Assembly: GCA_016871195.1 (NCBI GenBank)
Contig: VFZN01000007.1
Location: 1 to 64,000, forward strand
Reading direction: 5' to 3'
Source of the DNA: Acidobacteriota bacterium
Lineage (GTDB): Bacteria; Acidobacteriota; Vicinamibacteria; Vicinamibacterales; UBA2999
Length of the DNA: 64,000 nt
Shown here: piece after piece, positions 38,320-46,784 of the stretch
Layout: the number at the start of each line of letters is the position of its first letter
Position numbering within the stretch: position 1 is the stretch's first letter
The notes under the pieces: generated by a model
Databases searched by the model: none
What the model was told of the DNA's origin: nothing
What the model saw: the letters and a program-made list of their open reading frames with translations, nothing else
Translations under genes and position numbers: made by a program

Positions 38320-39999
<1,680 letters not shown>

Positions 40000-40008
40000 G
40001 CCCTCGCC

Positions 40009-40506
40009 ATGACCGAACGTGATGCCCGGGCGATTGCCGCGGTGCTCGGAGCACAGATCCGGCAGGAAATCGCGACGACGGTTCGGGTACTGCGCGCCAT
40101 CCCCGAGACGGGGCGGGGATGGCGCCCCGATCCCATCAGTCGGACCGCGTGGGACCTCGCGGTGCATCTGTGCCGGTCGGAAGAGTGGTTTCTCACGGGG
40201 CTGCTGACGGGCGACTTTGCACAGGGTCCGCAGGAGGCGCCGGCGGCCACGCTGGACGGGCTGGTGGCGTGGTACGCGTCGGTGGTGCCCTCGAAACTCG
40301 AGGAGGTGCTGGCGCTCGAAGACGCAGTCCTGGCGTCCTCCGTTGATTTTTACGGCACACCGCTGCCGCGTGTCGTCCTGTTGCCACTCTTCATTGGCCA
40401 CTCGGCGCATCACCGGGGGCAACTCTCCTCGGCGCTGCGCTCGATGGGTGCACGCGTGCCGAGCATCTACGGCAGCAGTGCCGATCAGTCGTGGAAGGCC
40501 GTATGA
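40009..40506 (+). CDS. DinB-family (four-helix bundle, putative metal-dependent) protein
   Basis: A 165-residue protein of the DinB/DUF664 superfamily, unrelated to DNA polymerase IV. It has the metal-ligand spacing of the fold: a first His in AVHLCRSEEWF, and the terminal HSAHHRGQLSSALRSMG with two or three His. Members include thiol-dependent transferases and many of unknown role. The stop overlaps the start of the following gene (ATGA). Confidence 0.88.
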   Translation: MTERDARAIAAVLGAQIRQEIATTVRVLRAIPETGRGWRPDPISRTAWDLAVHLCRSEEWFLTGLLTGDFAQGPQEAPAATLDGLVAWYASVVPSKLEEVLALEDAVLASSVDFYGTPLPRVVLLPLFIGHSAHHRGQLSSALRSMGARVPSIYGSSADQSWKAV

Positions 40507-41612
40507 CCCGTCGTCTGCTGCGTGCGTCGCTGCTGATCTGGACGGTCATCGTGACGGCGTGTGCGCCGGCACCTCCCGACCTCGTGCTTACGGGAGGGCG
40601 CATCTTCACGGCGACCGACGCGCAGCCGTGGGTCGAGGCGCTTGCCATCCGTGGGGACCGCATTATCGCCGTGGGCAACACGGCCGAGATCACCGCGCTC
40701 GCCGGTCCGACGACGCAGCGTCGCGCGCTCGAGGGGCGCATCGTCGTGCCGGGGTTCAACGATGCGCATGTGATTGACCCGGGGGGCGATGCGGACGCCG
40801 TGCGCGCGGTCCTCGCCAGGGGGCTGGCAATGGGGGTGACGTCGGTGCAGTGGTTTGCGGGCGAGCGCACGGTCGCGGAGGTGGCGCGGGTCCTGCGTGA
40901 GGCGGCATCGCCGGCGCGGGTGCGCGTCTTCCGGATGCCTCGACCAGGCCCTGCCGGGATGACCATCGACAGTCGCCCGCACCTGCCACCGCAGCCCACA
41001 CTGCGCATTGACATCAGAGGGTTTGGTTTCCGTCTCGGAAGCGATGACCGCGACCGGATCCGGCAGGCGGTCGGCTGGGCCTTCGGCACGGAAGACCTGC
41101 TCGCCGTCGAAGCGACAGACGAGGACGGGCTGCGTGCCTATGAGGCGGCGCTGACGTCGACGGGCGTAGCCGAGGTCTGGCGCCGTAAGCGCCCGAGGAT
41201 CGACTGGCCCAGGCAGCCTCTTGATTCGGTGCTTGGTCTTCTGCGCGACTACGGGATCAGCGTCGTGCAGGGCACCCGCGGGGACGCCGTGCTCCAATCA
41301 CGTGTCTTACCAGTCGGTGCGATGGCCGTTGGTACGGGCAGCGGCATTCAACCCTTCGAGGAGTTGGCCTGGCTGATGTCTCCCGAACGGGGGGCGACGG
41401 CATGGACGGGCATCGAGGCGCTGACGGCCATGACGCGCGGAGGTGCGCTGGTCGAATTGCAGGGGCGAGACAAGGGATTTCTGGCGCCAGGCGCACTGGC
41501 CGATGTGGCTGTGCTGTCCGATGACCCTCTCGCGATGACGCCGGCCCGCGCGGGCCACATGCGGAGCCTGCTGACGTTGGTTGGAGGAGAGGTCGTTCAC
41601 GATGTTCCCTGA
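40503..41612 (+). CDS. Amidohydrolase-like lipoprotein lacking metal ligands (pseudoenzyme)
   Basis: A 369-residue protein with a lipoprotein signal (lipobox VTAC, about residues 15-18). The frame is that of YtcJ-type amidohydrolases: LVLTGGRIFTATDAQPWVEALA, GRIVVPGFNDAH, GVTSVQ, and at the end GALADVAVLSDDPL. However, the HxH ligand pair reads HVI (His89-Ile91), and the expected HAIGD, EH and SD metal positions read EATDED, DW and TG. It is about 180 residues shorter than typical YtcJ proteins (about 550). Frame and codon use are intact, so this looks like a maintained non-enzymatic relative rather than fresh decay. It overlaps both neighbours. Confidence 0.78.
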   Translation: MTRRLLRASLLIWTVIVTACAPAPPDLVLTGGRIFTATDAQPWVEALAIRGDRIIAVGNTAEITALAGPTTQRRALEGRIVVPGFNDAHVIDPGGDADAVRAVLARGLAMGVTSVQWFAGERTVAEVARVLREAASPARVRVFRMPRPGPAGMTIDSRPHLPPQPTLRIDIRGFGFRLGSDDRDRIRQAVGWAFGTEDLLAVEATDEDGLRAYEAALTSTGVAEVWRRKRPRIDWPRQPLDSVLGLLRDYGISVVQGTRGDAVLQSRVLPVGAMAVGTGSGIQPFEELAWLMSPERGATAWTGIEALTAMTRGGALVELQGRDKGFLAPGALADVAVLSDDPLAMTPARAGHMRSLLTLVGGEVVHDVP

Positions 41613-43410
41613 TCTTCGGACGTTTGTGCACCAGCTGCGGCGGGACCGCGACATCGTCGAGATCACGGCGCCGGTCGATGCCGAACTGGAAGCGGCCGAA
41701 ATTCACCGGAGGGTGATCGCGGCCGGTGGTCCGGCATTGCTGTTCAGCAACGTACGGGGCAAGGCGTTTCCTCTGGCCACGAACCTGTTCGGCACGGCCC
41801 GCCGGGCTGAGCTCGCCTTTGGTGAGCGCCCCCTGCGTCTCATCCGCGAGATTGTGCATCTGGCTGAAACGATTCTGCCGCCGACGGCGGGGAAACTTTG
41901 GGAGGCGCGCGGACTCGCGACCGAACTGCTGAAGGTGGGCCTGTCGCGCCAGCGGTCCGGACCGGTCACCGAGGTGGTATCGTCCACCCTACGTCTCGAT
42001 CAGTTGCCGGCCCTGACATGCTGGCCTGAGGATGGCGGGCCGTTTGTCACGCTACCTCTCGTGTACACCACACCGCCGGATGGTCGCGGGGCCCCGAATC
42101 TGGCGATGTATCGCATGCACGTACACGACGCACACACGACCGGCATGCACTGGCAGATTGGCAAGGGCGGCGGCTTTCATCACCAGCTTGCCGAGGCACG
42201 TGGAGAAGCGCTTCCGGTCACGGTGTTTCTGGGCGGGCCACCTGCGCTGATCCTGGCAGCCATCGCCCCACTACCGGAGAACCTGCCCGAGCTGATGCTG
42301 GCGTCCCTCATCGCCGGTTCCCGACTGCCGCAGGTGCCCGGCCCCAACGGCCATCCGCATCCGCTGGTGGCCTCGGCCGAGTTTGCTCTGATGGGGGAAG
42401 TGCCCGCCCACGTGCGCCGTCCGGAAGGCCCTTTCGGTGACCACTACGGCTATTACTCGCTGCGGCACGACTATCCGGAGTTCCGCGTGCGGCAGATTGC
42501 CTATCGACATGATGCCATCTACCCAGCCACGGTCGTCGGCAAGCCGCGGCAGGAAGACTTCTACATCGGCGACCTGCTCCAGGAGTTGCTCTCGCCGCTG
42601 TTCCCGCTCGTGATGCCGGCCGTGCAGCAGCTATGGTCCTACGGCGAGACCGGCTATCACTCGCTCGCAGCGGCGGTGGTCAAGCAGCGCTACAAGCGCG
42701 AGGCGATGGCCAGTGCGTTCCGGATTCTTGGCGAGGGGCAACTGTCGCTGACCAAGTTCCTGCTGCTGACCGACCGGCACGTCGACCTCAAGGATTTCCG
42801 GGCAACGCTTGAGCACATCCTGTCGCGCACCGATCCGCGCACCGACTTGTACGTGTTTTCGAATGTGTCGATGGACACGCTCGACTACAGCGGGCCCACC
42901 ATCAACGAAGGGTCAAAAGGGGTGTGGCTCGGCGTCGGCGATCCGGTTCGGGACCTGCCCCGGCAGTTTCAGCCAGCGGTCGCCCCCCCGCGCGACGTGC
43001 GCGATGTGCGTGTCTACTGCGGGGGCTGTCTGGTGGTCGAGGCGTCGAGCTACGCAGCCGACCGCGAGGCACCGGGTCGCTTGGCGGCGCACCCCGCCTT
43101 CGCCGGCTGGCCGCTGGTCGTGGTGTCCGACGATGCCTCGAGAGCCGTGCGCAGTGACATGAATTTTCTCTGGACCACTTTTACGCGGTTCGAGCCGGGG
43201 GCTGACATTCACGCGGCAGACACGTCGGTTGTTCGACACCATGTGTGTTACACCCCGCCGGTCGTGATCGACGCGCGGATGAAGCCGTGGTACCCTGCCG
43301 AGCTGTCGTGTCGTGACGACATTGCCCGGCGTGTCACCGATCGGTGGCGCGAATATTTTCCGGACAATGCCGTCGAGATGGGCGATAGCGAACGAGGACA
43401 TCTGGCGTAA
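41602..43410 (+). CDS. UbiD-family decarboxylase
   Basis: A 602-residue prenyl-FMN-dependent (de)carboxylase. The start at 41602 (MFPDLRTFVHQL) lies within the end of the preceding gene, with GGAGGAGAGG about 9 bases upstream. Family segments include MHWQIGKGGGFHH, VFLGGPPALILAA, PEGPFGDHYGYYS and FSNVSMDTLDYSGP. UbiD acts on 4-hydroxybenzoate derivatives in quinone synthesis, but the family also covers many aromatic acids; the substrate here is open. No ubiX (flavin prenyltransferase) gene is in the window. Confidence 0.92.
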   Translation: MFPDLRTFVHQLRRDRDIVEITAPVDAELEAAEIHRRVIAAGGPALLFSNVRGKAFPLATNLFGTARRAELAFGERPLRLIREIVHLAETILPPTAGKLWEARGLATELLKVGLSRQRSGPVTEVVSSTLRLDQLPALTCWPEDGGPFVTLPLVYTTPPDGRGAPNLAMYRMHVHDAHTTGMHWQIGKGGGFHHQLAEARGEALPVTVFLGGPPALILAAIAPLPENLPELMLASLIAGSRLPQVPGPNGHPHPLVASAEFALMGEVPAHVRRPEGPFGDHYGYYSLRHDYPEFRVRQIAYRHDAIYPATVVGKPRQEDFYIGDLLQELLSPLFPLVMPAVQQLWSYGETGYHSLAAAVVKQRYKREAMASAFRILGEGQLSLTKFLLLTDRHVDLKDFRATLEHILSRTDPRTDLYVFSNVSMDTLDYSGPTINEGSKGVWLGVGDPVRDLPRQFQPAVAPPRDVRDVRVYCGGCLVVEASSYAADREAPGRLAAHPAFAGWPLVVVSDDASRAVRSDMNFLWTTFTRFEPGADIHAADTSVVRHHVCYTPPVVIDARMKPWYPAELSCRDDIARRVTDRWREYFPDNAVEMGDSERGHLA

Positions 43411-43433: not shown

Positions 43434-43818
43434 GTGACCGACCCAGCGAATCACGATGTTCTGGTCCGGGTGCGAAGCCGCTACCTCAAAAGAGCGCAGC
43501 GCCCCCGCTGACGATCGAGATGTTTTTGTTTACCATGTGACCATCACCAATAATGGGGGCGATACCCTGCATCTCATACGCTGCCACTGGGTCGTGACCG
43601 ATTCCAATGGAACCTCCTACGAAGTGCATGGCGCTGGAGTCGCGGGGGAACAGCCAGTTCTGAAGCCACGCATGGCATTCGATTACACAAGTTTCTGTAC
43701 GCTGAAAACGCCGGTAGGGTCCATGCACGGCACCTACACGATGGTGACCCACACAAAGGTGACGCTTCGGGTGCGAATTCCGCCTCTGACCCTGACCGTG
43801 CCTAACGTGGTGACCTGA
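43434..43818 (+). pseudogene. apaG: apaG (DUF525 protein), frameshifted in a C5 run
   Basis: The N-terminal part reads VTDPANHDVLVRVRSRYLKRAQRP in one frame (GTG at 43434) and the rest reads ADDRDVFVYHVTITNN, HWVVTDSNG, GAGVAGEQPVLKP and TPVGSMHGTY in another. The latter is classic ApaG. The two join if one C is removed from CCCCC at 43502-43506; as written, the first frame ends at a TGA a few codons later. So the gene carries a +1 insertion, or the assembly has a homopolymer error. ApaG is a small fibronectin-type protein linked to Co2+/Mg2+ effects. The coding order and intact flanks suggest the damage is recent. Confidence 0.82.
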
Positions 43819-45758: not shown

Positions 45759-46784
45759 ATGAACCAACAGTGGTACATGGCAGTGGGCGGCCACCAAGTC
45801 GGCCCGGTGGCTGAGGATGAGATCATCAGCCAGTTACGCAACGGCACTATCGACGGCGATACGCTCGTCTACACCGCCGGCATGGTGACGTGGCAGAAGA
45901 TCAGGGAGGTGGCCACCTTCGCGCCCTTTCTGACCCAGGCGGCGATGGCCGGGGGCCCTCCGCCGCCGCCCCCGCCTGGCATTCCCGGCCGAGTGGCGCA
46001 TGAGATCGACTTTGTCATCCACGGGAATGAGATGCAGTTTGTCGAGGTGGAACTCGATCCGGGCGAGGCAGCCGTAGCCGAGGCCGGCGTGTTCATGTAC
46101 ATGACCCCGGGCATCCAGATGGAGACGATCTTCGGCGACGGACGCGCACAGGCGTCCCGGGGGATGTTCGATGCGCTGGTTGGGGCCGGCAAGCGCCTGC
46201 TGACGGGCGAAAGCCTGTTCATGACCGTCTATCAGAATCAGGGGCAGGGCAAACAGCGGGTGGCGTTTGCCGCCCCGTATCCAGGCAAGATCCTGCCGAT
46301 GGACCTGAAGGCACTTGGCGGCCAGCTGATTTGCCAGAAGGACTCATTCCTCTGCGCGGCGCGTGGCGTGAGCGTGGGCATCGCCTTCCAGCGAAAACTG
46401 GGAGCCGGACTGTTCGGCGGCGAGGGTTTCATCATGCAGAAGCTCGAGGGCGACGGTCTCGCCTTCGTGCATGCAGGCGGCACCATCCATGCCGTCGACC
46501 TGCGTCCCGGCGAGACACTGCGCGTTGACACCGGGTGTCTGGTGGCCCTGCAGGCGGCCGTGCAGTACGACATTCAGTACGTGGGCAACATCAAGACCGC
46601 GCTGTTCGGGGGCGAAGGCATCTTCTACGCAGCGCTGACAGGTCCCGGCCGCGTCTGGCTGCAGTCGCTGCCATTCAGCCGTCTGGCCGACCGCATTTAT
46701 GCCGCCGCACCGCAGACCGGTGGACGTCGCACGGAAGAGGGCTCGATTCTCGGCGGGCTGGGCGATCTGCTCGACGGCCGGTAG
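45759..46784 (+). CDS. GYF_2 domain fused to an AIM24 (TIGR00266-type) domain
   Basis: A 341-residue protein. Residues 1-55 are a GYF_2 domain (QQWYMAVGGHQVGPVAEDEI, ending VTWQKIREV). Residues about 65-78 are a linker with seven prolines in a row (GGPPPPPPPGIPG). The rest is an AIM24/TIGR00266 double beta-sandwich (GDGRAQASRGMFD, GAGKRLLTGESLFMTVYQN, LFGGEGFIMQKLEGDG). GYF domains bind proline-rich peptides, so the protein could bind its own linker. No signal peptide or membrane segment is present. Confidence 0.9.
   Translation: MNQQWYMAVGGHQVGPVAEDEIISQLRNGTIDGDTLVYTAGMVTWQKIREVATFAPFLTQAAMAGGPPPPPPPGIPGRVAHEIDFVIHGNEMQFVEVELDPGEAAVAEAGVFMYMTPGIQMETIFGDGRAQASRGMFDALVGAGKRLLTGESLFMTVYQNQGQGKQRVAFAAPYPGKILPMDLKALGGQLICQKDSFLCAARGVSVGIAFQRKLGAGLFGGEGFIMQKLEGDGLAFVHAGGTIHAVDLRPGETLRVDTGCLVALQAAVQYDIQYVGNIKTALFGGEGIFYAALTGPGRVWLQSLPFSRLADRIYAAAPQTGGRRTEEGSILGGLGDLLDGR

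Follow-up and report, generated by a model that had tools for sequence, protein, structure and literature searches.

The window, that is, the whole stretch of 64,000 nucleotides that we analysed, carries at 40503-41612 (+) an uninterrupted frame of 369 residues with the following neighbours and signal.

38320-39999 (+): gene for a product that we take to be an ABC-F-type ATPase from its two ABC ATPase motifs and that family synteny places at the upstream edge of the conserved slot
40009-40506 (+): DinB-family protein, upstream neighbour, overlapping the next gene by 4 nt (Pfam DinB, 45.8 bits; synteny)
40503-41612 (+): shortened, ligand-poor lipoprotein of YtcJ/Amidohydro_3 fold, 369 aa (ORF, translation, Pfam, homologues, AlphaFold2 model)
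40503-40562 (+): lipoprotein signal, residues 1-20, ending in VTAC, with Cys20 as the predicted lipidation site (sequence)
41602-43410 (+): UbiD-family decarboxylase, downstream neighbour, overlapping the preceding gene by 11 nt (Pfam UbiD, 224.7 bits)

The open frame, the lipoprotein signal and the tight overlaps with both neighbours had all been described in the first-pass annotation, and we recovered each of them. Downstream of UbiD, the window also encodes an ApaG-domain (DUF525) protein of 120 aa (43456-43818), conserved at this place in the family, and a protein with GYF_2 and AIM24 domains (45759-46784), conserved further downstream. No defence-related match was obtained with PADLOC.

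The 369-aa protein matched the Pfam family Amidohydro_3 (PF07969) with 46.5 bits, above the curated cut-off of 29.7 and most strongly at residues 305-366, indicating homology to this family. Its signal sequence closes with the lipobox-like VTAC, whose Cys20 is shared without exception by the seven short homologues described below; judged by its sequence, the protein has the signal peptide and lipobox Cys of a bacterial lipoprotein and is predicted to be lipid-anchored via Cys20. The AlphaFold2 model, obtained with 51 sequences, had a mean pLDDT of 92.3 and a pTM of 0.90 (an intact orthologue reached a pLDDT of 92.4). It comprises the full beta-sandwich and eight barrel strands (residues 85-91, 112-119, 139-144, 169-178, 200-204, 232-234, 253-257, and 274-277), i.e., the beta-sandwich and (beta/alpha)8 barrel of the amidohydrolase fold. 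With VIA-align, residues 22-369 gave Z values up to 34.0 against amidohydrolases (triazine hydrolase and deaminase structures), while Foldseek matches included the CRMP non-enzymes. The solved YtcJ-type amidohydrolases (PF07969; 3ICJ and 3IGH) share with the protein the beta-sandwich and barrel, the strand order and the C-terminal GALAD..VLS.D motif (20% identity, Z about 30 with VIA-align), but the 369-aa protein is without five of the six metal ligands and some 190 residues close to the active site.

The ligand columns were defined from 46 intact homologues, which read H, H, K, H, H, and D there and deviate no more than once in any column. The corresponding residues of the 369-aa protein are H89, I91, G175, E203, W235, and G279, the first His of HxH being the sole survivor. 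The altered sites are as follows.

40767-40775 (+): former HxH motif, now H89-V90-I91, first His kept and second gone (sequence, alignment)
41025-41027 (+): place of the bridging (carboxylated) lysine, taken by Gly175 (alignment; Gly in all seven short members)
41109-41126 (+): former HAIGD motif, now E203-A-T-D206-E-D (alignment)
41202-41207 (+): former EH motif, now D234-W235 (alignment)
41334-41339 (+): former SD motif with the catalytic Asp, now T278-G279 (alignment)

The alignment thus agrees with the initial reading of these motifs as HVI, EATDED, DW, and TG. The accompanying statement that every metal-ligand motif was lost holds for the motifs, all of which are broken, but not for the ligands, H89 still being present. 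The HxH, bridging Lys, two His and Asp that define the Amidohydro_3/YtcJ enzymes are not found together in this protein, nor in the other short members, one of which (G002) retains the last ligand Asp. Set beside the predicted structure, these data describe a predicted complete fold in which five of the six ligand positions are changed, and the protein would have no catalytic activity.

One could imagine instead that the old barrel now houses a new enzyme, metal-independent or with a differently placed site. The barrel is complete in the model, and some changed residues located at or near strand ends are conserved, namely G175 and D206, on which all seven short members agree (the D206 column being occupied by Gly in intact enzymes), and also F118 and M145. 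However, the alignment revealed no new invariant cluster of His, Cys, Ser or Glu at the strand ends, no substitute metal site was visible when the protein was aligned with its homologues, the former ligand positions 91, 203, and 235 vary freely among the short members, and D206, which directly precedes the helix 207-220, may simply cap it. We thus consider a new enzyme quite improbable.

Besides the ligands, three blocks of 128, 48, and 18 residues are absent when the protein is aligned with the intact syntenic orthologue of genome G042.

40776-40781 (+): deletion 1, a loss of 128 residues (G042 91-218) that connect beta1 to the helix after it (alignment, secondary structure of both models)
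41043-41060 (+): deletion 2, placed approximately, a loss of 48 residues (G042 312-359) from the loop that follows beta4 (alignment; the placement depends on the alignment within a few residues)
41271-41276 (+): deletion 3, placed approximately, a loss of 18 residues (G042 432-449) from the helices that follow beta7 (alignment, model secondary structure)

The protein is 173-197 residues shorter than the intact syntenic orthologues (542-566 aa), close to the 180 or so first estimated. The first two blocks are missing in all seven short members and the third in six of them, G035 having at this place residues that show little likeness to the intact loop. The first block is the insert that YtcJ enzymes carry between beta1 and the next helix, together with its conserved His (His163 in G042). 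According to the secondary structure of the intact orthologue model, the missing blocks are connections following barrel strands. In amidohydrolases these connections lie on the metal-binding side of the barrel, and the three lost segments would thus adjoin the active site, as judged from the secondary structure of the models.

The same short protein was present in two other genomes of its own genus (51-54% identity) and in four of a second genus (44-47%). The seven short members (G000, G002, G003, G005, G035, G039, and G041) therefore cover two genera of one Acidobacteriota family. In the six other genomes the protein is likewise ligand-poor, of similar length and located at the same ABC-F/DinB/short gene/UbiD locus, so that the search for same-length homologues suggested at the outset returned proteins sharing both the ligand and the segment losses. 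A third genus (G024) has an eighth short copy, with the ends of its deletions displaced by a few residues. We did not recover the short form outside the family of the seven, either in the best 80 of 504 loci of a GTDB contig scan or among 162 genomes from the same order. The homologues refute an artefact of assembly or annotation, which was conceivable insofar as the related sequences come from genome assemblies, mostly metagenomic: the same two large deletions recur in seven genomes at 44-54% identity, and the probability of such an artefact is negligible.

The gene order is conserved in the family: M16 peptidase, ABC-F, DinB, short or intact YtcJ gene, UbiD, ApaG-domain protein, and ABC exporter (the M16 peptidase and ABC labels being our assignments from sequence motifs). 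UbiD was present in 39 of 43 family genomes and ABC-F in 38 of 43, and the DinB gene occupied the slot in most relatives examined. The YtcJ gene itself is much more variable. It has the short form in the seven members and G024, and retains its full length and every ligand in G042, G031, G034, and G036, as well as in G038, where it is split over two contigs; in G001 the slot is cut by a contig edge. Relics were detected in G032, where the frame is broken, and in G028, where only 45 C-terminal codons are left, whereas the slot contained no YtcJ gene in G010, G017, G006, G030, and G021. The two relics show that the gene is dispensable in some lineages. In both relic genomes, an O-acyltransferase of MBOAT type (87 bits with Pfam in G028) and a 342-residue partner without Pfam match lie between the upstream gene and the relic (L174:3781-6335 in G028, L143:5331-7777 in G032); at this place, gaps of about 6.3 kb are seen in G035 and G042.

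The 359 codons common to the seven short genomes are free of stops. Using IQ-TREE codon models (GY+F3X4), we obtained an ML omega of 0.084 for the seven short genes and of 0.075 for the intact ones. By region, omega in the short genes was 0.03 (residues 22-91), 0.07 (92-309), and 0.09 (310-366), and fixing it at 1 worsened the fit by about 430 lnL units overall and by 261 in the barrel. Pairwise NG86 dN/dS was higher, 0.26-0.41 between short genes vs. 0.17 for the intact pair G034-G031. Third-position differences of about 0.5 indicate that synonymous change is near saturation, which makes the omega values rough and accounts for the difference between the ML and NG86 estimates, both of which are well below 1. 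Plain decay of the short clade was thus excluded by the shared losses, the stop-free codons and the low omega. Protein-level evolution is nevertheless several-fold faster in the short protein than in the neighbouring ones, the identity of G005 and G039 being 65% here, compared with 92% for UbiD and 98% for ABC-F.

The overlap with UbiD raises the possibility that the frame is kept mainly to give ribosomes access to the UbiD start, the protein itself being unimportant. The stop of the short gene overlaps this start in all seven short members (1-17 nt), including the six other short homologues, in which the overlap with DinB does not recur, whereas the intact orthologues tested have gaps of 3-9 nt. 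Such translational coupling would not, however, constrain amino acids throughout the protein, whereas each of the regions gave an omega of about 0.03-0.09, and we regard this explanation as very improbable.

The gene could also be a relict in slow erosion, its catalysis lost, its remaining constraint limited to folding and to keeping clear of toxic misfolding, and its disappearance under way. This would fit the relics of G028 and G032 at the same locus, the fast protein evolution, the pairwise dN/dS above that of the intact pair and the long branch of the short G024 copy. On the other hand, the frame has been kept through all indels in seven genomes of two genera, omega is far below 1, barrel included, specific replacement residues are fixed, and a useless gene would hardly have persisted over a divergence of 44-54% identity. 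We thus find slow erosion rather unlikely.

The gene tree differs from that of the neighbouring proteins. In the neighbour-protein tree, G042 branched within the second genus, beside G039 (support 100). The tree of the gene itself, by contrast, united the short proteins of the two genera in a single clade that excluded G042. An AU test of a grouping of G042 with the short copies of the second genus rejected it for the whole alignment (p about 1e-4) and for the barrel (about 6e-5); when only the N-terminal 85 columns were used, the grouping was not rejected. The same test on the whole alignment, together with the identity of the first two deletions, makes it less likely that the two genera underwent truncation independently. 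The intact G042 gene (L136:10953-12653) has an N-terminal part compatible with its genus and a barrel that is not, and the closest relatives of this genome by ABC-F (98-99% identity) carry the short form. The sandwich parts of G024 grouped with intact copies from the same genus (the alternative had AU p values of 0.006 and 0.004), in conflict with its barrel, which sided, if weakly, with the short clade (p 0.038). These conflicts could be due to recombination of the part that encodes the barrel or to differential loss of old duplicates. It is a tentative suggestion, and one we hold with some doubt, that the dead lipid-anchored YtcJ protein, deprived of the segments beside its active site, acts as a membrane receptor or scaffold whose barrel module has passed from lineage to lineage through recombination at a single locus.

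Considering all these data, the 369-aa protein is very probably a retained non-enzyme, and we favour, with moderate confidence, its interpretation as a selected pseudoenzyme: an enzyme homologue that has lost its catalytic residues and is kept by selection, with losses common to seven genomes. The relics in G032 and G028, the fast protein evolution and the near-saturated synonymous sites speak against this interpretation, and within the gene neighbourhood we identified neither a partner nor a ligand. The original proposal that the protein was selected as a non-enzyme is in line with what we observed, same-length homologues sharing the losses and dN/dS lying well below 1. The ancestor would have been a full-length lipid-anchored YtcJ-type amidohydrolase encoded in the ABC-F/DinB/UbiD locus. 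The two-genus lineage would then have shed almost all metal ligands and three segments close to the active site while retaining, as the sequence and the model show, the beta-sandwich, the eight barrel strands and the lipoprotein signal. The product would most likely have become a membrane-held non-catalytic binding or scaffold protein; a binding protein had also been suggested at the outset. Its contact surfaces may be those common to intact and short orthologues, such as the 156-172 loop (D-S-R-P...P-P-Q-P...R...R-G) and the segment 226-232 (W-x-x-K-R-P-R). D156, P162, Q164, R168, R172, K229, P231, and others are fixed in both sets and mostly not in outgroups, making them the best candidates for a retained surface. 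The 3.1 Mb genome G000 encodes at least 12 further Amidohydro_3 matches above the cut-off, six of them exceeding 290 bits; these proteins are possible partners of the short protein or sources of the lost activity.

Pseudoenzymes of this kind are already known, since both CRMPs and pDHO are amidohydrolase-fold non-enzymes. The animal CRMPs have likewise kept the fold, largely lost the metal ligands and taken another role, CRMP-4 retaining two of the six metal-binding residues and having Leu at the bridging lysine, but they are cytosolic members of the dihydropyrimidinase branch in which an active-site-like cavity persists (PMC4051505). The pDHO chain of Pseudomonas ATCase and its fungal counterpart are also inactive chains of this fold; the former is required for ATCase activity, and the latter lacks the zinc ligands and is described as being of the same size as the active enzyme (PMC7053772). 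In contrast to our protein, which is shortened and by prediction lipid-anchored, pDHO has a known partner. A literature search covering few subscription journals returned no described pseudoenzyme of the YtcJ branch. What would be new here is the shortened, predictedly lipid-anchored YtcJ version of an amidohydrolase-fold pseudoenzyme.

These results call for caution with the name "amidohydrolase" when it derives from a C-terminal profile match, since it can cover non-enzymes. The intact same-locus orthologues (G042, G031, G034, and G036) have the same gene neighbours and the same locus-specific motifs as the short protein, from which they differ in having all ligands and the three segments. 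One orthologous locus thus offers a natural series from the full enzyme to a shortened, dead but selected protein, a broken relic, a 45-codon relic and an empty site, so that close relatives allow a direct test of how an enzyme becomes a pseudoenzyme and is then lost.
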